Shown: one piece after another, positions 1,509 to 20,641 of the stretch
How the letters are laid out: every line of letters begins with the position of its first letter
How positions within the stretch are numbered: the stretch's first letter is position 1
Virus record (IMG/VR): IMGVR_UViG_3300049893_001704
Span: 1-23,102 of that record
Direction: 5' to 3' (one strand)
Length of the DNA stretch: 23,102 bases
Origin: a virus
The notes under the pieces: model-generated
What the model was told of the DNA's origin: nothing
The model's input: the letters and a program-made list of their open reading frames with translations, nothing else
The model's database searches: none
Position numbers and translations under genes: made by a program

Positions 1509-1868
1509 TTAATCCAATTTGCTCACCAAAGCCCGCCGCGCTGCTCGAAAACTGTGATCATCCCATAAGGCGCGGATTTCGTAACTGTCGCTGTTGATGG
1601 TCACTTTATCATGTGGTCTGATGTCGGTAGATGAGGGAACGGTCAGCATGTAGTAATTCCCCTCCGCCTCCCGACTCCCTACAATATCTTGGATTACCTG
1701 ACGCTTGGCTTTTGCCAGCATACAATCCGCTGTACCCGCTGCTACCGTGCCAGGGATTTCATACCCCCCTACCGTGCTGTTATTTTCGCGGTAGATGATA
1801 GCGGTTTGATCCATCAGGCTTTCCAGGTCAGCGCGAATGCTGGCGAGTTCGGTAGCGGATAGGCTCAT
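1509..1868 (-). CDS. Head closure / head-tail joining protein
   Basis: Predicted protein of 119 aa. The pattern (N-terminal helix, MDQTAIIYRENNSTVGGYEI, CMLAKAKRQ, YYMLTVPSSTDIRPHDKVTINSDSYEI) matches the small beta-barrel stoppers of siphoviruses, SPP1 gp16-like, in which a strand reading as 'D.v.i....yeV' is typical. It would plug the connector after packaging. It starts in an ATGA overlap with the connector gene and is followed after three bases by the tail terminator gene, the expected order. Confidence 0.78.
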   Translation of the reverse strand: MSLSATELASIRADLESLMDQTAIIYRENNSTVGGYEIPGTVAAGTADCMLAKAKRQVIQDIVGSREAEGNYYMLTVPSSTDIRPHDKVTINSDSYEIRALWDDHSFRAARRALVSKLD

Positions 1869-2710
1869 AAATCACCCCTCACCATTCGCACCGTTCGCGC
1901 CCCGGCTTGCTTTTGGAACTCCGCAGCCATCGCCAGACAGTGCTTGTGCATCTGGCTTCTGTTCATCGCTTGGTCATCCATACGGATGTCGTATTTCATC
2001 GCCACAAATGACGCCTGTTGTTTCCAGATTTCAGCGGCGGCCCGATTCAAATCATATGACCGCCCGCGTAGGTAGTAGGCACTTCCGGCGGTGTCAGCCG
2101 TAAAGCGGATATGCCCCCGGTTGTAATCCGGCGTGTAGTTGGCAGTCCCTACAGGTACATTGTTTTGGTCATGCACCTGCCAATACGCACTCCCACTGAC
2201 AGACGCCTCTAAATTCCCCAGCGGAGCATAGAAATCGTGGTAAACTGCCGTCCCCCCGCTGTTGTATTCCGTGACTGACCGGAGTTGCACGTAATCCAGT
2301 GACTTGACATGACGATCCAGTACCGACTGTAATTGATAATCCGTGTAGTAATCCATGCCGTTGACGCTGTAATCTGCCGTGCCGATATTGCACAGCCCCC
2401 GCAATTCCTGAACCAAGCCCAACATGCCTAGCCGGATTGCGTCACGTACAAAGATATTCAGCGACCGTACCCCCGTGCGGCTGCTAGCAGTCACGATGGT
2501 ATTGGTGGCTAGGTAACTGTGACCATCCACACCGCCGGACAACCACACCGTCGAGGTGGTGGTTGTGTTGCTGTTGGTTCCTTCTGTCAGACCAGCCGAA
2601 ACCGTCCAGCTTGCTGTACTGATAGTGTCACCGTCCAGCCAGTCAGACCAATTGATCTGATAATCCAAGACTTCTGTTGATGTTTTGATAAAACTATAGA
2701 CACTGTTCAT
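1865..2710 (-). CDS. Head-tail connector protein with N-terminal beta domain
   Basis: Predicted protein of 281 aa in two parts. Residues about 5-90 are a beta domain of the tail-adaptor type (TSTEVLDYQINWSDWLDGD, then SWTVSAGL, VWLSGG and TIVTASSRTGVRSLNIFV). Residues 92-281 are a head-tail adaptor-like portion with DYYTDYQLQSVLDRHV, a Gly-rich beta segment, then the YDLNRAAAEIWKQQA and RSQMHKHCLAMAAEFQ helices. Connector proteins of this kind bind below the portal. The ATG at 2710 makes an ATGA overlap with the repeat gene. The two parts are usually separate in other phages as far as recalled, so this could be a fusion. Confidence 0.75.
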   Translation of the reverse strand: MNSVYSFIKTSTEVLDYQINWSDWLDGDTISTASWTVSAGLTEGTNSNTTTTSTVWLSGGVDGHSYLATNTIVTASSRTGVRSLNIFVRDAIRLGMLGLVQELRGLCNIGTADYSVNGMDYYTDYQLQSVLDRHVKSLDYVQLRSVTEYNSGGTAVYHDFYAPLGNLEASVSGSAYWQVHDQNNVPVGTANYTPDYNRGHIRFTADTAGSAYYLRGRSYDLNRAAAEIWKQQASFVAMKYDIRMDDQAMNRSQMHKHCLAMAAEFQKQAGARTVRMVRGDL

Positions 2711-5106
2711 ACTTGACGCCTTCCATTGACCGCCACACTCGTTGGTCGGTCTGCTTGGATTGTCCGATTATTCCCCTCATCAGCCACCGCTACCCCCCTA
2801 CCCCCTTCGATGCTCACCACCGCATTGCGCTCGACTGCCGCCGTCCTATCAATTGGCGCCGCTAGCACGGCGATGATTTCAGGATTGGTGATGGTCGCTT
2901 GTACGCTAGATGGCAGTGGGGTAATCGTCGAATCCCCCGCAATAGAAATCTCAGGATCCGTGACGGTTGCCTGAACGGTTACCCAAACAGGCGTTACAAC
3001 CTGGCTCCCTAGCGTGATGAGTGCATCGGTCACAGTGGCTTGCACGGGCGCAAAATCAGGGCTGACGATCTGACTGCCCTGGGCGATGATCGGCTCGGTA
3101 ATGGTCGCTTGTGCGAGCGCGAAGACTGGGCTGACCGCCTGATTACCCTGGGCAGTGGTCGCATCAGTGACCGTCGCTTGCATTATGGCAGGCGCGGGTG
3201 TTACCGTCACATTCCCTGCTCCCACCTCAATCGTCGGATCAGTAACAGTGGCTTGCACGGTTGAGGCTGCTGGGGTAATTGTCTGATTACCTGCTACCGT
3301 CGAGGCGTCGGTAACGCTGGCTTGCACGGCGGCGATTGCGGGCGTAATAGTGACGTTGCCCTGTGCCGTTGTCGGGTTTGTAACCGTTGCCTGAACAGAA
3401 GCCGTCGCTGGCGTAGCACTCTGACTGCCTTGTACTGTGCTGGCATCCGTAATCCCTGCTTGCACGTTTGCCGTGCTAGGGGTTACGGACTGACTACCCT
3501 GGACGGTAGAGGCATTGGTAAGACTGGCTTGGGTCGAGGATGCGCTGGGGGTAATCGTCTGACTACCCTGTGCCGTTGTCGCATCCGTAACCGTTGCCTG
3601 GACATTCGCTGGGTTCGGTGTAACGACCTTATCCCCACTAGTATCTATCGTGGGATCAGTAATCGTCGCCTGCGTCGTGGCTGCGCTGGGCGTTAGGGTT
3701 TGATTACCCGCCGCTGTTGTGGCGTCTGTGATCGTTGCTTGGGTGTTTGCCGTCGCTGGCGTTTTGGTTTGCGAACCTTGGGCAACTGTCGGATTAGTGA
3801 CCGTCGCTTGTACAGTGGCGGGCGTGGGTGTCTTGGTCTGACTGCCGAGCGCGATGGTCGGATTAGTGACCGTCGCCTGTGAGGTGGCTACCGCCGGGGT
3901 CTTGGTCAGACTCCCCAGAGCAATGGTGGCATTGGTGACCGTCGCTTGTGAGGTGGCAACCGCTGGCGTAACAGTGACATTACTCGCCGCCTGGCATACC
4001 ACCTCAAACATCAGGGCTTGCCAGTAGGGGTCTGGGGCGGCGTCAGTGCTGTACCCAAATCGCATCTTCAGGGCGTCAACAATGCTGGTAGACCATCCCC
4101 CGCCAGGGTCAGTCATTTTTGCCATTCGATACTGGCTAGCCGTTTCGGACATGTCCACTGGTGTTGACGAAGTACCGAAAATGCTAACCTCACTGCCGTT
4201 CACAATGGCTATGGTCGAACCTGTATTAGCAGCCGTGCCAGCAGAGTTATAATGAACATAACCCCAGACCGCCTTGACCGTGCCTGGTGAGGCTGGTAAG
4301 TTTTCAAACTGGACTTCGGCATAATTCCCAGACCCATTGCCAGTTTGTTGCACGCGGTCAGCCGTGCTTGTCCAGTCGGTTTCATCCAGCTTGTCGTAAG
4401 CGGTTACGGTGGTTCCATTGATGTCCGAGCCGTCGCTCAATTCCATGATATTGGCGGCGTTGTTGTGTGTGCCATCCGCGTTAGGACGCAGACCAAAGAT
4501 TTTGTATTCGCCAAGCGGATAATCGCCGCTGACATCCGTACAGATAAAATCTTCAAAATAGGTTTCGGTATTCGTTGTTGTGTTGTTATCGTTGCCGAGC
4601 CGCGCGGCTGTAATAGTATCGGCAGCTTGGGCAAAGGAATGTCCTGTTTGGTCAGTGCCGTCGATTTTCCAGGCAATTGTATTCGGATTAGCCGAAACAT
4701 CTATTTTAAGATCGATCCGATACCACGTTCCTGTTGTCATGGCATTGGCGGATACAGCGGGCGTTCCCCCCGAACCAAACTCTACCTCCAGCTTGTTGGT
4801 AGAACCATTGATCCGTAGGCGCGGTGCTGACGTACTTGTTCCTAACACATTTCTGAAAAGATGAGTTGACGCTGTTGGCAGAATGCCAAAACGAACATAG
4901 AACGATGTCACTACAACAGTGGAAGTGGTAATCGTTTTCTGAATATGCTCGACCGCTGAAGCCGATGTGATATTCAGGACATACGATCCTGAGCCGCTAC
5001 GGGTAGGCGTGTTTGAAATGGCAGGGGAACCCGTGACGTTATTCCACACGTTCCCCGCCGTACTTAGTACCCCGTACTCAAAACCCGTAGCGAATAGGAT
5101 GGTCAT
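2707..5106 (-). CDS. LamG-like virion protein with a long Thr/Pro repeat stalk
   Basis: Predicted protein of 799 aa. Residues 1-190 look like a concanavalin/LamG-type beta sandwich (ATGFEYG start, RSGSGSYVL, YVRFGILP, WYRIDLKIDV, YFEDF). Residues 195-375 form a second beta-rich domain. Residues 380-744 are sixteen tandem units of 23-25 aa with consensus TPxxAxxQATVTDxTxxQGxQT. The final 55 residues form a separate C-terminal tail rich in Val and Arg. The architecture (binding-like head, long Thr/Ser/Pro stalk, anchor) suggests a fibre or surface adhesin. It lies between glycosyltransferases and connector genes; the Thr/Ser-rich stalk is a plausible glycan acceptor. No chaperone or peptidase domain is seen. 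Confidence 0.82.
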   Translation of the reverse strand: MTILFATGFEYGVLSTAGNVWNNVTGSPAISNTPTRSGSGSYVLNITSASAVEHIQKTITTSTVVVTSFYVRFGILPTASTHLFRNVLGTSTSAPRLRINGSTNKLEVEFGSGGTPAVSANAMTTGTWYRIDLKIDVSANPNTIAWKIDGTDQTGHSFAQAADTITAARLGNDNNTTTNTETYFEDFICTDVSGDYPLGEYKIFGLRPNADGTHNNAANIMELSDGSDINGTTVTAYDKLDETDWTSTADRVQQTGNGSGNYAEVQFENLPASPGTVKAVWGYVHYNSAGTAANTGSTIAIVNGSEVSIFGTSSTPVDMSETASQYRMAKMTDPGGGWSTSIVDALKMRFGYSTDAAPDPYWQALMFEVVCQAASNVTVTPAVATSQATVTNATIALGSLTKTPAVATSQATVTNPTIALGSQTKTPTPATVQATVTNPTVAQGSQTKTPATANTQATITDATTAAGNQTLTPSAATTQATITDPTIDTSGDKVVTPNPANVQATVTDATTAQGSQTITPSASSTQASLTNASTVQGSQSVTPSTANVQAGITDASTVQGSQSATPATASVQATVTNPTTAQGNVTITPAIAAVQASVTDASTVAGNQTITPAASTVQATVTDPTIEVGAGNVTVTPAPAIMQATVTDATTAQGNQAVSPVFALAQATITEPIIAQGSQIVSPDFAPVQATVTDALITLGSQVVTPVWVTVQATVTDPEISIAGDSTITPLPSSVQATITNPEIIAVLAAPIDRTAAVERNAVVSIEGGRGVAVADEGNNRTIQADRPTSVAVNGRRQV
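2875..3969 (-). repeat. Coding minisatellite, about 69-bp unit, sixteen copies
   Basis: The DNA encodes sixteen in-frame units of 23-25 codons; three units carry one or two extra codons, the last is partial. The first two units are nearly identical, the others diverged, with CAAGCGACGGTC-like (Q-A-T-V) cores most constant. The gradient from similar to diverged units suggests recent duplication at the 3969 end. Copy number could vary by slippage or recombination. Confidence 0.85.
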
Positions 5107-5573
5107 GGGAGGTTAGCAACCACCTCTTCATTAATCGCCTTGACCGACTCTGCCCACTTCCGGTACTCCAACCACGCCAAGCACAACGCCTCGGCAGGAC
5201 TGGTGGGATGCCATTGATTCATCTCATTTGTTGACTTGGTATCATCAAAGAAGTAAATCATGGCAATCCATTGAAACGTCCCATCCGGCTCCCTAACGCG
5301 CTTAATGGCTACCTTTAATTCATGGTCATTGTTTTCGTTGATGAGGGTGACCGCCTTATCCAAGCTGCTGGCGTAGGCTTCGGTCTGGATTTTGCTTTCG
5401 ACATCCTCAGCGGGTAGAAACATCTGGACGGGTTTACCCTCAGGATCAAACACCACACTATCATAGGTCGCTAAGTCTTCAGCGGTCAGCGTGGCTTGCT
5501 GCTTTTCGTCCAGGTCTTTGACGGCTATCAGTTGGTAGCCCTTTTCCTGCATGACCAGCCAGTCGATTGTCAT
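5103..5573 (-). CDS. Hypothetical protein between virion surface genes
   Basis: Predicted protein of 156 aa, not recognised. It is acidic, with alternating helical and strand-like segments (LTAEDLATYDSVVFDPEGKP; WIAMIYFFDD) and a C-terminal helical region (EALCLAWLEYRKWAESVKAI). The ATG at 5573 forms the TAATG overlap common in this operon, with GAGTGA about seven bases upstream; the alternative ATG at 5591 adds six residues. Its end overlaps the repeat protein start as ATGA. It may be an assembly chaperone or accessory of the neighbouring fibre-like proteins, by position only. Confidence 0.7.
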   Translation of the reverse strand: MTIDWLVMQEKGYQLIAVKDLDEKQQATLTAEDLATYDSVVFDPEGKPVQMFLPAEDVESKIQTEAYASSLDKAVTLINENNDHELKVAIKRVREPDGTFQWIAMIYFFDDTKSTNEMNQWHPTSPAEALCLAWLEYRKWAESVKAINEEVVANLP

Positions 5574-6451
5574 TAGATGGTCACTCGCCATTCCAGATTT
5601 TGCAGGGTCAAAATGTAGGTATCGCTCACATTCTGGCTGGCGGATAAATCATGCCAAGCCAAGACGTTACGACTGCCAACAGTAGCATGATGATTGGTAA
5701 TCACTGCGTATCGCGCCCCGGCTCCGCTATCCAGCGCTCCGCCCGAAGCCGTCCATGCCACGTCCTTAGCCTGCAATTCAGCGCGGTCATCCGTGTCATT
5801 TTCGGTGAGGGTATCAAAATCAGTCCCGTTCCGGCTCATGGTGTAGCCGCCGTCACTGTAACCCGTGCCCGTGCTGATTTGCGTCAACTCAGATAGGGTA
5901 TTGATGGAAACCGACGGCGCGGAACTGGCACGGATAAGTGCAATGTACAGATTGGATGGCGCAGACGTGGCACGGAACATATAGCCCAAGATTTCATACA
6001 TGCCCTTGTCGGTGAACTGTCCTGAATTCAGGTTCAGATTGAATTGAAAATTTTTGACAATGTAGGGCTGTCCCGCATTGGCAGTTCCTGTAGCATCCCC
6101 AAAGGCAATGATCTGCCTGTTGGCGGGAGTCGCATTATCATCCGTAATGACAATCTGCGCGGGGGCTATACTGGTGGTCGCAGTCCACTGAACATCCTTG
6201 ATCTGAACATAGGCAGTAGAACTGCCTTCGGTGTAGACATCGAAATCCGTTGCACCAGGCGTTAGGGATGCGCCATTGGTGGTGTAACCGCCATCACTAA
6301 TCTGGGTCAATTCCCCCAGCGTGTTGGTGTCGACTGTAGCAGCTACCGCGTTGGTGATGAGTGCCATATAGAAATTAGTAGGCAGGGTCGCACCTCGAAA
6401 GTAGTAATCCATAAGTAGCTTTCGCCCTCGATTTGTCCAGTTACCAGCCAT
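5573..6451 (-). CDS. Virion structural protein with duplicated beta domain
   Basis: Predicted protein of 292 aa made of two related domains, residues about 11-141 and 151-290. Matching blocks are LPTNFYMALI with APSNLYIALI, NTLGELTQIS with NTLSELTQIS, ATDFDVYTE with GTDFDTLTE, and IKDVQWTAT with AKDVAWTAS. The domain type (an xxYVALxT-like strand followed by GY and W blocks) is common in phage decoration, fibre or tail-surface proteins. The start at 6451 has AGGAG ten bases upstream. It follows the glycosyltransferases and precedes the repeat-rich LamG-like protein, so an exposed virion role is likely. Confidence 0.75.
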   Translation of the reverse strand: MAGNWTNRGRKLLMDYYFRGATLPTNFYMALITNAVAATVDTNTLGELTQISDGGYTTNGASLTPGATDFDVYTEGSSTAYVQIKDVQWTATTSIAPAQIVITDDNATPANRQIIAFGDATGTANAGQPYIVKNFQFNLNLNSGQFTDKGMYEILGYMFRATSAPSNLYIALIRASSAPSVSINTLSELTQISTGTGYSDGGYTMSRNGTDFDTLTENDTDDRAELQAKDVAWTASGGALDSGAGARYAVITNHHATVGSRNVLAWHDLSASQNVSDTYILTLQNLEWRVTI

Positions 6452-6458
6452 CGCCTAA

Positions 6459-7361
6459 TTACTCCTGATTAATGATTTCCTGTAAAATCGCTACCAGCTT
6501 GGGAGCGTCCAATGGCTCCCCTATCATCCGCTTCCGCCATGTCTCAAAGACATGACCATCACCTAGGCTGAATGCCTGTTCTATCAGACCCGCCATATCG
6601 CCCGCCCCGGCGTCCAGGGGGAACGCCAAGTCATCACAATACTGTTCCCAGTGATCCGGCAGTCTTGGATATTCATCGTCTAAGCTGGTCATAAATCCCA
6701 CTGTTGGCACTCCCTTAGCTAGGCTCATATACGCATACGTGCCAGATGCCACCACCACGTCTACCGTGTCAATGTCGGCGGTTGATCCGTCATACCGCCC
6801 GGCACGGTAGGTAATACCCGGCTCAATGGTTAGGTGATTTTGTTCCAATGTCCCCAGATACCGAACGGACAATTCAATATCATCCATTGTCCGTAGCAAC
6901 TCCCAGACAAACCCATTCCAGTACCGTTCCAATTTGCCGAGCAGCCCATGACCATCAGGATGGATAGGCGCAAATAGCACCCGCCGTCCGCTGGGCTGGC
7001 GCATAGGTCTAACCTCCGACAGAAACCATCCGCACACATAGATAGGCTTGGGATAGCCATACTTAAGCATGATGTCCCGATGTCCCTCGGCAGGCACAAG
7101 TACCGCGTCCGTTTTGGCGTAAGGCTCATACAGACCATCCCAAACCACATTCGGGTTTGCCCCGTGTGGGTAGATGACGATCTTTGCCCCGCGTTCTTTG
7201 TGCCAGTCGATGATCTGGCGATAGTCGTAAACGGGGAAATCGGTATCAATAAGCAGCACATCGGCGGCAAATCTTTCATCACTGCATTCTACGCCTTGCG
7301 ATTCCAGCGCAGCCCACAATGGCGCAGCTTTGTTTTGGTGGTTCCTCATGGCAACGCGCAT
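6459..7361 (-). CDS. GT-B fold glycosyltransferase-like protein
   Basis: Predicted protein of 300 aa. The pattern resembles CDP-glycerol transferase or UDP-sugar GT-B enzymes: IVIYPHGANPNVVWDGLY, AVLVPAEGHRDIMLKYG, RRVLFAPIHPDG opening the second half, and VVVASGTYAYMSLAKGVPTVGF as the nucleotide-binding-type segment. No signal peptide or membrane helix is evident. It starts in a TAATG overlap with the trifunctional gene and AGGTGA upstream, so the two are co-translated and probably act in one pathway. Donor and acceptor cannot be read from the sequence. Confidence 0.78.
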   Translation of the reverse strand: MRVAMRNHQNKAAPLWAALESQGVECSDERFAADVLLIDTDFPVYDYRQIIDWHKERGAKIVIYPHGANPNVVWDGLYEPYAKTDAVLVPAEGHRDIMLKYGYPKPIYVCGWFLSEVRPMRQPSGRRVLFAPIHPDGHGLLGKLERYWNGFVWELLRTMDDIELSVRYLGTLEQNHLTIEPGITYRAGRYDGSTADIDTVDVVVASGTYAYMSLAKGVPTVGFMTSLDDEYPRLPDHWEQYCDDLAFPLDAGAGDMAGLIEQAFSLGDGHVFETWRKRMIGEPLDAPKLVAILQEIINQE

Positions 7362-9991
7362 TAGTCACCTATTGGACAAATGCCTAAGCGGGTATCAGGG
7401 ACATAAACCCGCGCTTGTTCAATCAACTCTTGTGGGCTGGCTACGGACTGCAAACGCGCATTGGTATGCACTTCCCCACGAATATGCTCCACACGGGAAA
7501 GCACTTCCCCCGCATTCATCAAGATTTCGTATTCCGCGCCTTCACAATCCAGCTTCAGGAGTTTGCAGCGTTCAATCTGGTGATTGTCGAAAATGTCAGC
7601 CAAGGTGACCGATTCCACCTGATAGCGATTCCCGCCGTTTGGTGTGGTAAAGGCAGACATGCCACCGCTGTTGATGTCCATATGCCCCGTCAAGGTCAAG
7701 GGGCGGCGGTCACTGGTCACTGCCCGGTTAATCGCGATGACATTGGTAATGCCGTTTGCTTGGATGTTTTTGAGCAATCGCTGGTAACTGTCTGGTACAG
7801 GCTCATAGGCGTAAATCTTCGCGCTGGGGTATTTCTTGGCAAGCCATATGCTTACTACCCCCACTTGCGCTCCGATGTCGATAACCACCTCACCCTCAGC
7901 CAATTCCGGCAAGCTGTAGCTATACTTGACCTCATGCAGTACGATCTTGGCAACCCCGCCCTGCGGATCATCTTCAAACACCAGCCCGTCCGCAAAGGCA
8001 AAGCCTGACGGATCAATCACATGCCGTCCGTTTGGCTGTTGTCGTAGACCAGCCACACACTGAGGATCACGGCATGGGATAAGCAAATCACCCTGGTGAT
8101 ATACCCCGATATGCGCCCAATCATGGCGGTGCTTGCTTTGCAATCCCAAAGCGGTCATGATGGTCTGTTCAAATCGGGCGCGATTGTCTGCGATTGCATC
8201 ATACGCGCCGGGGGCATGGCTGGACGTGGTACGCCCCCCGTTTAGGTGGACAATCCCCCAAGGACGCTCTACCAATGACATACCCTGACGTACCGCACGC
8301 CAGCATAGATCGTTATCTTCGTAGTAGCTACCCTGGTAATTTTTGGCATCCCACCCCCCTAATTCCTGGAAAGTAGACCGCAATCCAGCCAGACAGTAGC
8401 CATCAATATAGCCAATGCCGATGTCACCTACCGTGCGTATCTTCTTGGTGGGACCCACCAGCATGTTTTCCTGTACGTCATTCTTGACCATGCGCAGCCA
8501 TTCGGGGCGGCTGGCGGCGATGTCATTGTTCATAAACACCACAATATCGCCCCGCGCCCGACTGAGTCCTAGGTTATTGGAGGCGGAAAAACCCATGTTC
8601 TCAGCATTGCGGATATACACCCCGCCCAAGCGTTCTACCATCGCCAAGATGAGCGCGGCATTTTCCGGTGTACTGGCATTGTCGATAATGATAACTTGGT
8701 CTGCTTCATGCACAGCCGATTCATACAGCGGGATTAATTCGGGATGGTCTCGCCAGGGGGTAATCACGGAGATCGTGCGCGGCTTGCCCTCAATTGTCAG
8801 CGGTTCGTCTATGGCGGTCTCTGCCAACACCCGTGCTTCCATTTGCTCAAAAGCCGGTTTCCAGTATTTTTCAACCACCATATCCGCGTCATAGTCTGCC
8901 AACATTCCGGCGCGGGCTTGCTGCCCAAAGTCCAGATTACCACGCTGGGCATATGCCGCTTCCAGCTTATCTACCATATCCTCAACAGACGGCAGGAAGT
9001 AGTAGCTGCCTTGTGGCGAATAGAACTTGTCAATGGCTTCTACCGTCCAGCCCGCCCTAACCAATTCCGGCATGGCGGTGTAATTGCCCACAATTACCGG
9101 AGTACCACAAGCTTGTGCCTCAATAATCGGCACACCAAAGCCCTCGCCCATTGTGCAATTCAACAGGACATCCGCCGCGTTGTATAGCAATCGCATGTAG
9201 CGGTTATCCAGCAAGCCAGCCCGTAGCCGCCCTTGGTCACTGATGGCAATGGCTTGTGGCGGGATGTTGTGGAAGCTGATAACTTGCTGGAGGTCTACCC
9301 CGTCACTGCCCACCATATCGGTATGCAGTCCCAGCATAGCATCCGGGTGATGGCTGTAGAATTCGGCAAACGCTCGGATTTGTGGTTCAAACGCTTTTCG
9401 CGGCGGGCTGCTGCCTTTATTAGCCGCTACGATTTGCACCACGTAACGATCCAGCGGAATGCCCAACAGTTCCTTGGCTTTGGCTCGATCCATCGGTTGG
9501 AATTGTTCGCAGTCTACGCCGTGCGGCACATACAGCGGTTTCAATCCAGCTTTGACCATCTGGTCATATCCAAAACGAGCATAAGCCATCGGTTGCCAAG
9601 CCAGTGATAATGCCTTGGCAACAGGCAGGGGAATGGGATCATGGTCTACCGGAGCATAAGCCACCCAGCGCATGGTTTTCATGGTTTCTGCAATTTCCAA
9701 GAAAATCCAGGCGTCAATCAGGGTCAGCAAAAAGTCTGCGCCACTATGACGATAATCCCATCCGATTCTGTCCAGTGCATAGGAATGTAACGAGCTGGGC
9801 GGATAAATGAACACCTCATCCATCGTGATTGGCGATCCTTGATTACCATAGAACGCCGTCATGCAGAATGAGCGTTCTTTCATCTTCGCCCAGCGTGGGA
9901 TGAAAGTACGCATCTGTACCCCGTAACCCGTCCCCGCTTCGGGACTGTTACTGTACAGATGGTACTTGGGTATGGGATTACGGAATGACAT
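7361..9991 (-). CDS. Trifunctional glycosyltransferase: GT4, GT2 and FkbM methyltransferase
   Basis: Predicted protein of 876 aa with three enzyme domains. Residues 1-380 form a GT-B fold, GT4-type glycosyltransferase with the EX7E pair Glu283/Glu291 in EGFGVPIIEAQACGTP. Residues 405-615 form a GT-A fold, GT2-type transferase (VIIIDNAST, NMGFSASNN, FMNND and the acidic YYEDNDLCWRA). Residues 665-875 resemble an FkbM-type methyltransferase (VIDIGAQVGVVSIWLAKK, YAYEPVPDS, LLKLDCEGAEYEIL). Together these could build and cap, by O-methylation, a short glycan. The ATG at 9991 has GGGGA upstream and lies within the capsid gene end; an earlier in-frame start is less likely. Its stop overlaps the next gene by one base. 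Cell-surface glycan modification is an alternative to virion glycosylation. Confidence 0.9.
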   Translation of the reverse strand: MSFRNPIPKYHLYSNSPEAGTGYGVQMRTFIPRWAKMKERSFCMTAFYGNQGSPITMDEVFIYPPSSLHSYALDRIGWDYRHSGADFLLTLIDAWIFLEIAETMKTMRWVAYAPVDHDPIPLPVAKALSLAWQPMAYARFGYDQMVKAGLKPLYVPHGVDCEQFQPMDRAKAKELLGIPLDRYVVQIVAANKGSSPPRKAFEPQIRAFAEFYSHHPDAMLGLHTDMVGSDGVDLQQVISFHNIPPQAIAISDQGRLRAGLLDNRYMRLLYNAADVLLNCTMGEGFGVPIIEAQACGTPVIVGNYTAMPELVRAGWTVEAIDKFYSPQGSYYFLPSVEDMVDKLEAAYAQRGNLDFGQQARAGMLADYDADMVVEKYWKPAFEQMEARVLAETAIDEPLTIEGKPRTISVITPWRDHPELIPLYESAVHEADQVIIIDNASTPENAALILAMVERLGGVYIRNAENMGFSASNNLGLSRARGDIVVFMNNDIAASRPEWLRMVKNDVQENMLVGPTKKIRTVGDIGIGYIDGYCLAGLRSTFQELGGWDAKNYQGSYYEDNDLCWRAVRQGMSLVERPWGIVHLNGGRTTSSHAPGAYDAIADNRARFEQTIMTALGLQSKHRHDWAHIGVYHQGDLLIPCRDPQCVAGLRQQPNGRHVIDPSGFAFADGLVFEDDPQGGVAKIVLHEVKYSYSLPELAEGEVVIDIGAQVGVVSIWLAKKYPSAKIYAYEPVPDSYQRLLKNIQANGITNVIAINRAVTSDRRPLTLTGHMDINSGGMSAFTTPNGGNRYQVESVTLADIFDNHQIERCKLLKLDCEGAEYEILMNAGEVLSRVEHIRGEVHTNARLQSVASPQELIEQARVYVPDTRLGICPIGD

Positions 9992-10835
9992 CAGTCCCCA
10001 GCAAAATGTGACCCGTCGCAGGCCGCCAAGCACCCTCACCGAACCACACATTCAACACCGCATCCCAAGCCGCATTCAAGGCTTCGCGCTGGAATTCAAT
10101 CGCCATACCGCCGCCGCGCTGGTCGTAGGCTTGTGCTGAACGGGCATACATCGCCGCCGTGCCAGCCGTGCCACCAGAGTTAGCAATGTTGTCAGTCACG
10201 ATAAAAGTGACATCACCCATAATTGGCGAAACGAAGAAATCGCGTACCATACGGTCTTGGAATTCAGGAGCGTATTGGAAAGCACCGCTGGTATTGTTCA
10301 ACTGGGTGTAGAGGTGGTAGAACTGTCCATGACCAAGCACGCAGTACAACGGGCCGCCAACATTGGCTTGCCGCAATTTCGACTTAGCAGCCACGATATT
10401 ATTCCAGGTCAAAGTAGACCCGGCAGTACCAGTAGTGCCGCCCGTATAGGCTGCGAAGTTGGCAGTCAAAAGCTGGTCGATGTAATTGGACATCGACAAA
10501 CCCATTTCGATCCCCAAGCTGACGCGGGCATTATCATCGTCGCTGAAAATACGTTCGTCACTTACCCGCACGGCGATACCATGTCGTCCGGGGGTGATAG
10601 TCGATAGCAAGGTCTTGTCGAAAACCTGCGAAGTCAGAGCCGCGCCCTCTGCTACCGATTCCGGTGCTAGGGCGGGGTAAGTAGAGACCTTGCGAAGATT
10701 AAGCCCTAACTCATCACCAAAAAAGGTGACGGTCGGCAAAACCATCGGAGCCTCGCGCAGCGTCATTAACGCCGCTTCGTAAATGACAGGAGAGACAGCA
10801 CTAATGCCACTCCATAATGCTGATCCAGCAGTCAT
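9978..10835 (-). CDS. Major capsid protein (HK97 fold)
   Basis: Predicted protein of 285 aa. It follows the scaffold gene with a three-base gap and has AGGA eight bases upstream. The N-terminal arm, an E-loop-like beta segment (residues 30-60), a spine helix (NARVSLGIEMGLSMSNYIDQLL) and beta-rich C-terminal half fit HK97-fold coats that use a separate scaffold. The sequence is rich in Gly/Thr/Ala, with Gly-Thr-rich loops (GGTTGTAGST near residue 132, and SGGTAGTAAM near 227) that are plausible exposed surfaces. Its end overlaps the glycosyltransferase gene by 14 bases, so the capsid message also drives that enzyme's translation. Confidence 0.9.
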   Translation of the reverse strand: MTAGSALWSGISAVSPVIYEAALMTLREAPMVLPTVTFFGDELGLNLRKVSTYPALAPESVAEGAALTSQVFDKTLLSTITPGRHGIAVRVSDERIFSDDDNARVSLGIEMGLSMSNYIDQLLTANFAAYTGGTTGTAGSTLTWNNIVAAKSKLRQANVGGPLYCVLGHGQFYHLYTQLNNTSGAFQYAPEFQDRMVRDFFVSPIMGDVTFIVTDNIANSGGTAGTAAMYARSAQAYDQRGGGMAIEFQREALNAAWDAVLNVWFGEGAWRPATGHILLGTDVIP

Positions 10836-10838
10836 GTT

Positions 10839-11483
10839 TTAATCCTTGTCTGTGCTATGAATGACAACACCCGCCCCGCCAATGGCTTTTCCTGGACCGC
10901 CCCTGACTTGCTCGCGTACCATGCTTTTAACACGCTCACTCACGTCAGACTGTCCAGTGATCCCTGATGGGTTATGGTCTGGTAATGCGGGGGCAGATGA
11001 GGTAGAGCGCAGCAAGTGCGGCTTGGCTTTTGCCAGTTCCGTAATCGCCACGTCTACCCCCTCCGCTTTGCCATCCGTATATCCGATTTTGTTTCGGTCA
11101 ACCAAAGCCCACGCTTCCGACGGGTCAACAAAGCCAGCCTTAGCAGCCACCGCAATCACCGCAGCTTCTAGCCGTGCGTTTTGCAGTTCACGATCACGGG
11201 CAGTCAGGGCTTCCTCTCGCTGACGTGCGAGTTGTTCCCATTCACCCTTGGCTGCTAATTCCTCTTGCTGGCGTTTCGTTTCCTTATCTTCAAACTCCCG
11301 TAGCTTGACCCGTAACGCTGCCGCTTCTTGATTCGCCTCTTGTTTTTGGCGATAAGCCTCGGCGGGATTATCGAGTACCCACTGGGGAACATTCGTAGCC
11401 TGTTGACCCTGTGCAGGGGTAGCTCCCGGCGTTCCCTGTATTTCATTCGGTTTGCCCTCCTGGGGCATTTGTTCGTCTGTCAT
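10839..11483 (-). CDS. Capsid scaffolding protein
   Basis: Predicted protein of 214 aa. A Pro/Gln/Gly-rich N-terminus is followed by a long, highly charged coiled coil at residues about 40-105 (repeated Glu/Lys/Gln/Arg with heptad-spaced Leu/Ala). A smaller globular part follows, and the C-terminus is basic and Gly-rich. This composition and the place directly before the major capsid gene are typical of phage scaffolds of the GP20 kind, which template procapsid assembly and then leave. The start at 11483 has a good AGGAG six bases upstream. No protease motif is visible, so scaffold removal probably relies on exit or another enzyme. Confidence 0.85.
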   Translation of the reverse strand: MTDEQMPQEGKPNEIQGTPGATPAQGQQATNVPQWVLDNPAEAYRQKQEANQEAAALRVKLREFEDKETKRQQEELAAKGEWEQLARQREEALTARDRELQNARLEAAVIAVAAKAGFVDPSEAWALVDRNKIGYTDGKAEGVDVAITELAKAKPHLLRSTSSAPALPDHNPSGITGQSDVSERVKSMVREQVRGGPGKAIGGAGVVIHSTDKD

Positions 11484-11531: not shown

Positions 11532-11554
11532 AAAAAGGGGGCGTGAACCCCCTT
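11532..11554 (-). terminator. Intrinsic terminator between head morphogenesis and scaffold genes
   Basis: On the minus strand AAGGGGG (11548-11554) pairs with CCCCCTT (11535-11541) around a six-base loop; the Ts continue to 11532. The five G-C pairs plus T-run give a good intrinsic terminator. It sits 27 bases past the minor-head stop and about 50 bases before the scaffold gene. No clear promoter follows it, so scaffold and capsid expression would require read-through or antitermination. Confidence 0.8.
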
Positions 11555-19693: not shown

Positions 19694-19717
19694 ATTATAC
19701 AAAAACCTCTTGTCGAA
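19694..19717 (-). promoter_or_regulatory. Weak candidate promoter before the helicase gene
   Basis: A perfect -10 box TATAAT (19694-19699) overlaps the methyltransferase stop. The best -35 match 18 bases upstream, CTGTTA, agrees with consensus at only three positions. It lies about 85 bases before the helicase start, in the only gap of this gene cluster. It may be a weak or activated promoter, or chance. Confidence 0.3.
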
Positions 19718-20312
19718 TAACAGCATCCAGATCATCCACAATATCGTTTCCTGTCAGGTCGTTTCCCAGCGAAACCCACCCGTCTCGCTTTTCACGGGCG
19801 AATAATCGCAGATAGCGTGATCCGGTTAGGCGTTCAATGGCAGTATAAATTTTTTCGGGCTTAACACTGTGTTTCATGACAGGTTCAATTATCGTCATGG
19901 TTTCATAATAGAAATCATCTGGTGGACAATCGCTGACAATACTCAAAACGTCAGCATGTTTGCGGTGAGGTGTTCCTCTCGTAAATAGTAGACACGGTTC
20001 CGAGTTCGCACGTGTCCAATGTCCCATACCCACATGCCACTTGTTGGCGCGTTTGGCTCTTTTTAACCAATTAAAGCCAATTGTCTTATAGGTAAATCCC
20101 CACGCTTTGCCCACATCCAAGGCTTCTGGGAGTAAGGGGTAAGTAGCCCACAAAAACAGCACACAATCCTGATCCGCCACATTACCCACCGGAAGCTGCT
20201 TTAGTCGCTCAGTGGTCATGAGTGGGTAGTGACGGCTGGCAATGGCATTGCCAGCCGCCGACCACGTTTGATACAGCCAAGGTGGATCGGCTTCGATAAC
20301 ATCAAATTTCAT
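19695..20312 (-). CDS. MT-A70 family adenine N6-methyltransferase
   Basis: Predicted protein of 205 aa. The DPPW catalytic motif at residues 9-12 (MKFDVIEADPPW) is diagnostic of MT-A70-type, beta-class N6-adenine methyltransferases. Later family features include LFLWATYPLLPEAL, a GFTYKTIGFNWLKR segment, and GHWTRANSEPCLLFTRG. These enzymes transfer a methyl group from S-adenosylmethionine to adenine N6; in phages the substrate is normally DNA, protecting against host restriction or marking replication sites. No cognate nuclease is adjacent, so this looks like a solitary methylase. The start at 20312 is the ATGA overlap with the preceding stop. It is slightly short for the family but complete in its core. 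The target sequence cannot be read from the gene. Confidence 0.88.
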   Translation of the reverse strand: MKFDVIEADPPWLYQTWSAAGNAIASRHYPLMTTERLKQLPVGNVADQDCVLFLWATYPLLPEALDVGKAWGFTYKTIGFNWLKRAKRANKWHVGMGHWTRANSEPCLLFTRGTPHRKHADVLSIVSDCPPDDFYYETMTIIEPVMKHSVKPEKIYTAIERLTGSRYLRLFAREKRDGWVSLGNDLTGNDIVDDLDAVIRQEVFV

Positions 20313-20641
20313 GCTGCTTTCGCCTCTCTCTGCTCTGCCCAAGCCCGCGCCCCTGCCACCGCTTGCAGGATGGCTTTCGGCAATTCAAACATCGCTGCGC
20401 TGCTCATTAGCCGCCCGTCCTGCGTTGTAATCTGGCAGATCATATGAGCCGCCCCGCCGTTCCCCCGTTTCGCCAGCGTCCAGTTACACCCCCTGCTTTC
20501 GCAAAATTCGACCAGTGCCATCATTGCTATATGCAGTGGCACAATCGCCAGCGGTGGGTCTTTCACCGCCTTTTTTGCAGGGGTAGGGGGTAGGGTCTGC
20601 TTAATCCCGTCCGGGGGAAGTTCATTCCAAGGTTGCCGCAT
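20309..20641 (-). CDS. Hypothetical early protein
   Basis: Predicted protein of 110 aa, not recognised. A Pro/Lys-rich N-terminus (residues 1-35) precedes a compact region with ESRGCNWTLAKRGNGGAAHMICQ and an Ala-rich C-terminal helix. The ATG at 20641 is selected because GGAGG lies six bases upstream; the start at 20665 has no clear site. The gene overlaps the end of the 78-aa gene and ends in an ATGA overlap with the methyltransferase, so the three are probably co-translated. No catalytic motif is visible. Confidence 0.68.
   Translation of the reverse strand: MRQPWNELPPDGIKQTLPPTPAKKAVKDPPLAIVPLHIAMMALVEFCESRGCNWTLAKRGNGGAAHMICQITTQDGRLMSSAAMFELPKAILQAVAGARAWAEQREAKAA

Follow-up and report, generated by a model that had tools for sequence, protein, structure and literature searches.

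A GT4-GT2-FkbM fusion gene behind the capsid gene of a tailed phage: a putative glycan cassette for the virion

Why does a phage carry two predicted glycosyltransferase domains and a methyltransferase domain in a single chain directly behind its capsid gene, and what would such a protein modify? The glycosyltransferase genes of phages are commonly classed as auxiliary, with products that act on DNA or on the host envelope. The first-pass annotation of this locus had proposed dedicated decoration of the virion, with the capsid or a downstream repeat stalk as possible acceptors. In what follows, the window is the whole stretch of DNA analysed, that is, the entire IMG/VR virus record of 23,102 bases, which is classed as linear and is therefore probably a fragment. 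A near-identity search of the phage collection returned no match to it.

The cassette and its surroundings

All window genes of this study lie on the minus strand, in the order terminase, portal, MuF-like gene, scaffold, capsid, cassette, three further ORFs, neck and tail genes, which, judged from the predicted products, is that of a tailed phage. The cassette, located between the capsid gene and the neck and tail genes, is indeed surrounded by virion genes, as first annotated. The features needed below are as follows.

11535..11554, minus strand: terminator-like hairpin between the MuF-like gene and the scaffold gene (consensus match, not proof)
10839..11483, minus strand: head scaffolding protein (PHROGs head scaffolding), first gene of the head unit with capsid and cassette
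9978..10835, minus strand: major capsid protein gene, Phage_capsid_4-like (Pfam PF25209, 35.5 bits, cut-off 27)
7361..9991, minus strand: GT4-GT2-FkbM fusion gene, 876 aa, overlapping the capsid gene by 14 nt
8804..9991, minus strand: GT4 domain (aa 1-396) with E283-x7-E291, 46% identical to the capsid-linked GT4 of Mae-JY09
8135..8788, minus strand: GT2 domain (aa 402-619) with N488-N489-D490 and E558-D559-x-D561
7364..8134, minus strand: FkbM methyltransferase domain (aa 620-876; PF05050 and TIGR01444), with an N-terminal H-x-W...PCxDxxC extension conserved in the alignment
6459..7361, minus strand: GT-B-fold protein, 300 aa, TAATG-coupled to the fusion
1865..2710, minus strand: neck/adaptor protein with an N-terminal Gp77 domain, closing the capsid-to-neck interval

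The nearest annotated phage is Microcystis phage Mae-JY09, whose major capsid protein shares 34% identity with that of the window, and whose protein h12508 is matched at 32% by residues 93-276 of the neck/adaptor protein. The hairpin is strong and lies upstream of the scaffold, capsid and cassette genes, which suggests a separate transcript for that unit. Both GC and GC3 of the cassette are like those of the neighbouring genes, arguing against a recent import of different composition. With regard to the rest of the window, the 292-aa protein directly behind the cassette (5573-6451, minus strand) is built from a PHROG 644-like domain that occurs twice, in related copies. Further away, an MT-A70 family adenine methyltransferase (19695-20342, minus strand), which matches type II methyltransferase models, possibly protects the phage DNA. 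For a defence role, the only match was a weak one of a methyltransferase core to mads_2.

The ATG of the fusion gene overlaps the end of the capsid gene (10835..9978), the junction reading ATGTCATTCCGTAA. A second in-frame ATG is present at 10051, but when the protein is aligned with its relatives the start at 9991 fits, in agreement with the overlap of 14 bases first described. This overlap is peculiar to the window phage; its relatives recurrently show the adjacency of the two genes, the median distance from the capsid stop to the GT4 domain being 486 nt.

Pfam, NCBIfam and PHROGs are concordant on the three domains of the fusion, bearing out its original description, and the catalytic or binding motifs are intact in all of them. 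The GT4 domain matches group 1 profiles (Glyco_trans_1_4, 8.7e-10; PF13692, 39.4 bits, cut-off 27; PF00534, 37.7 bits, cut-off 26.4) and carries the E-x7-E motif at Glu283 and Glu291. The GT2 domain matches Glycos_transf_2 (PF00535, 4.1e-12, 46.8 bits, cut-off 23.3) and harbours a DxD-like metal motif and a catalytic acidic residue (NND490, E558-D559-x-D561); Glu283, Glu291 and Asp490 lie where they had been placed at first. The strongest matches are those of the FkbM domain (TIGR01444, 3.4e-31, 108.6 bits, cut-off 37.7; PF05050, 9.8e-17, 62 bits, cut-off 22.7), in which the SAM-binding motif DIGAQVG and the motif LLKLDCEGAE are present. No transmembrane-like stretch was found in the fusion or in the 300-aa second protein. 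The AlphaFold model of the whole fusion (pLDDT 40) was too poor for use.

The stop codon of the fusion overlaps the start of the second gene as TAATG (GACTAATGCGC). The second protein has no family above the curated cut-offs of Pfam, NCBIfam or PHROGs, its weak Pfam match to Glyco_transf_4 reaching 19.1 bits against a cut-off of 28.5; designed TIM barrels, its best PDB sequence matches, were taken as chance. Two relatives only were found (35% and 34% identity), in loci L291 and L174, where the order is GT4, GT2 and the GT-B gene, directly before neck or head-tail genes. An AlphaFold2 model built on this three-sequence alignment (pLDDT 79) aligns over its full length, with two Rossmann-like domains, to GT-B enzymes (Z 14-16.5), among them UDP-GlcNAc 2-epimerases (Z 16.5) and the rhamnosyltransferase SpnG (Z 15.2). 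The protein had been described as a second GT-B enzyme, of which the coupling and the full-length fold stand; the model is compatible with either a glycosyltransferase or a UDP-GlcNAc 2-epimerase-like enzyme, which the fold alone does not tell apart. Of note, a formyltransferase gene (PF00551; L291:3211-4029) adjoins one of the two relatives, which suggests an N-formylated sugar in that cassette.

Recurrence behind capsid genes and repeated fusion

With the fusion or the GT-B protein as a single query sequence, scans retrieved no relatives, whereas tblastn of the fusion against annotated phages and alignment-based scans succeeded. A GT4 profile scan of IMG/VR gave more than 500 relatives, of which 80 were kept, and GTDB loci were added. 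A capsid gene lies at most 1 kb upstream of the GT4 in 72 of the 91 IMG/VR and GTDB loci with enough sequence, and a GT2 follows the GT4 within 600 nt in 60 of 98. At 80% identity, a recognised capsid gene is situated at most 2.5 kb upstream of 68 of the 91 GT4s whose context is known. Two mutually dissimilar capsid families, MCPa and MCPb, were distinguished before the GT4 by PHROG matches and profiles. The interval from capsid to neck is filled with GT2, FkbM, a small methyltransferase, an epimerase or a formyltransferase. This GT4 clade is found almost only on phage or phage-like contigs; the better GTDB matches (at least 34% identity over most of the domain) come mostly from short contigs of metagenome bins in several phyla, the phage origin of those shown being judged from adjacent head genes. 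No paper found in the open-access literature, to which the search extended, states the linkage of capsid and GT4.

The reverse scan used seven capsid seeds and returned 75 loci. After removal of redundancy, 35 capsids had 3 kb of sequence on their downstream side, and 31 of these are followed by a GT4 within 3 kb, an upper estimate since all the seeds came from GT4-bearing loci. Some of the capsids without GT4 have the neck gene directly behind them. In contrast, a GT4 was found in only one of 41 terminase relatives of the window phage, indicating that the GT4 is tied to the head module rather than to the phage lineage. Furthermore, the division of the GT4 tree follows capsid family, with 3 changes compared with 22.7 in shuffles.

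In 94 of the 112 MCPa loci, a family of small proteins of about 120-145 aa, called c19, is encoded between capsid and GT4. The following examples have no Pfam family above cut-off.

L012:2734-3102: c19
L209:3592-4002: c19
L289:4396-4758: c19

c19 is a candidate for a head decoration protein that accepts the glycan. The window has no c19 gene, and the family was rejected as acceptor of the window cassette.

The three-domain fusion itself was surveyed in 329 loci, redundant contigs included. The exact GT4-GT2-FkbM order occurs on five contigs, namely the window and L209-L212, the latter four corresponding to two non-redundant ones with triple fusions 38-42% identical to that of the window. Since four other contigs have the same domain order, the fusion is not a product of chance or of assembly error. 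In L209-L212, the capsid gene is followed by a small gene, the triple fusion and a methyltransferase gene, with the neck gene further on where the contig extends. Other combinations in the same redundant set are GT4-FkbM (45 ORFs), GT2-GT4 (two) and FkbM-GT4 (one), and in other loci the same domains are encoded by adjacent separate genes. On the GT4 tree, the triple fusions fall into two groups apart from each other, and the starred branches force at least two changes; judged from this tree, the triple fusion arose at least twice. Such repeated fusion of the same partners points to joint action. GT2-FkbM two-domain fusions without GT4 were also noticed in several other viral contigs (L267-L283).

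What the cassette may modify

Comparative genomics thus lends good support to a dedicated glycan cassette in a late structural operon, and to this extent the virion decoration first proposed is upheld; for the acceptor, the virion is the best single reading. We moderately favour the view that the cassette is a phage-encoded glycan assembly unit, which equips a virion protein, most likely in the head, with a short methylated glycan. The enzyme activities, the sugars, the order of action, the acceptor and the role we infer by analogy, as follows. The two cassette genes would be expressed with the capsid protein late in infection. The GT4 domain, as in characterised families, would place a sugar on the virion protein or extend a first sugar, to which the GT2 domain would add a second one, while O-methylation by the FkbM domain would cap the glycan. 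The role of the GT-B protein encoded downstream would be either to attach another sugar or to supply a sugar donor. The resulting short methylated glycan would be displayed on the virion surface, most likely that of the head, and might serve in shielding or attachment.

With regard to the acceptor, no sequon was identified. In Mantel comparisons, the GT4 distance correlates with that of the neck (r 0.55) more than with that of the capsid (r 0.40), so that the capsid is not singled out, and co-divergence was rejected as proof of a capsid acceptor. The repeat stalk of the first-pass annotation corresponds to a 799-aa protein (2707-5106, minus strand), the C-terminal half of which is made of Thr/Ala-rich imperfect repeats, with a 69-bp array at 3788-3963. 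As a general acceptor it was dismissed, having a single sequence relative among the 329 loci (L031) while the cassette recurs in dozens. The position beside the capsid could also reflect a tolerated insertion site or late expression alone.

The enzymes could also act on an envelope glycan of the host, blocking superinfection or the re-adsorption of progeny to debris. Late expression fits this too, the enzymes of envelope glycans typically include GT4, GT2, FkbM and sugar epimerases, and the glycosyltransferases of freshwater actinophages have been proposed to serve DNA protection or superinfection prevention (PMC10202952). We nevertheless regard it as unlikely, given the linkage to capsid genes across many phages, the soluble character of both cassette proteins, and the GtrA flippase, which was above cut-off in none of 23 partial records and weakly matched in one (G009); such contigs are fragments, from which the absence of a gene is no proof.

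Still less probable, in our opinion, is the glycosylation of a host protein for takeover or counter-defence, in which case the capsid-side position would only give strong late expression. The GT4 family does fall in the PHROGs category of moron, auxiliary metabolic gene and host takeover; however, the variable tailoring enzymes of these loci (methyltransferase, formyltransferase, epimerase) suit a displayed oligosaccharide better than a toxin-like modification with one sugar. As for the glycosylation of hypermodified phage DNA bases, of which T-even phages are the classic case (PMC9614988), we consider it very improbable, since the window and 22 related partial records contain no thymidylate-synthase/hydroxymethylase homologue (PF00303, for which controls matched), the cassette sits in the head operon, and base glycosylation needs neither FkbM nor sugar-modifying enzymes. 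The search with PF12851 (Tet/JBP) was uninformative, as its controls gave no match.

Beyond the window, this comparison of loci suggests that many environmental phages may coat their own particles with sugar chains. More tentatively, we can propose that a widespread, phage-specific and capsid-linked module, centred on one GT4 clade that has fused repeatedly with GT2 and FkbM, decorates the heads of many environmental tailed phages in several bacterial phyla, a possibility to which we stop short of giving our preference. If true, these head modules would share capsid glycosylation as a common ancestral trait, and it would be no oddity of mycobacteriophages. The capsid-linked and repeatedly fused GT4 clade leads to the testable prediction that many uncultured phages have glycosylated, methylated particles, which would bear on phage adsorption, stability and immune recognition.

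Comparison with known systems

Closest to the window are Mae-JY09 and Pontimonas phage phiPsal1, whose GT4s belong to the PHROG 2170 glycosyltransferase family and are capsid-adjacent as well. In Mae-JY09, the capsid gene is followed by a small gene, the GT4, a weakly matching GT2-like gene, an epimerase gene and the neck gene, and in phiPsal1 by GT4, a methyltransferase gene on the opposite strand, GT2 and the neck gene. Unlike in the window, the domains are carried by separate genes, which are annotated only as glycosyltransferases, with no stated target. Of the two phages, Mae-JY09 has a deposited genome, and phiPsal1 is reported to be lost (PMC6106888). The Gtr serotype-conversion clusters of temperate phages likewise consist of phage-borne glycosyltransferases, from which the window cassette differs by its soluble proteins, its position in the head operon and, across the 23 partial records, the lack of a GtrA-type flippase above cut-off.

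Among phages with glycosylated particles, the cluster F1 mycobacteriophages Che8 and Rita bear glycans on their major capsid proteins (as cited in PMC11256854), and, like the window phage, they are tailed phages with phage-encoded glycosyltransferases. According to the same paper, the glycosyltransferases of the F1 phage Maravista are located near the 3' end of the genome and not beside the capsid gene, and no GT4-GT2-FkbM fusion is described there for F1 phages.

The nearest parallel in architecture comes from giant algal viruses. In PBCV-1, the A064R protein has two glycosyltransferase domains and a methyltransferase, which extend and methylate the capsid N-glycan (PMC7826918, PMC9614988). 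Like the window fusion, A064R (with A111/114R) is thus a virus-encoded chain of two glycosyltransferases with a C-terminal methyltransferase, the likeness being one of architecture only. A064R has 638 aa, with a GT34-like first domain and a second one of its own GT family, whereas the window fusion, with GT4, GT2 and FkbM domains in 876 aa, belongs to a tailed phage and lies beside the capsid gene. No A064R chain is among the PDB sequence matches at E 1e-3, and A064R is therefore treated as an analogue and not as a member of the same family. In the PDB, the GT4 domain finds its best match by sequence in a chlorella virus NY-2A glycosyltransferase (3oy2), and the phage cassette, if it acts as we propose, would parallel the capsid glycan machinery of these giant algal viruses.
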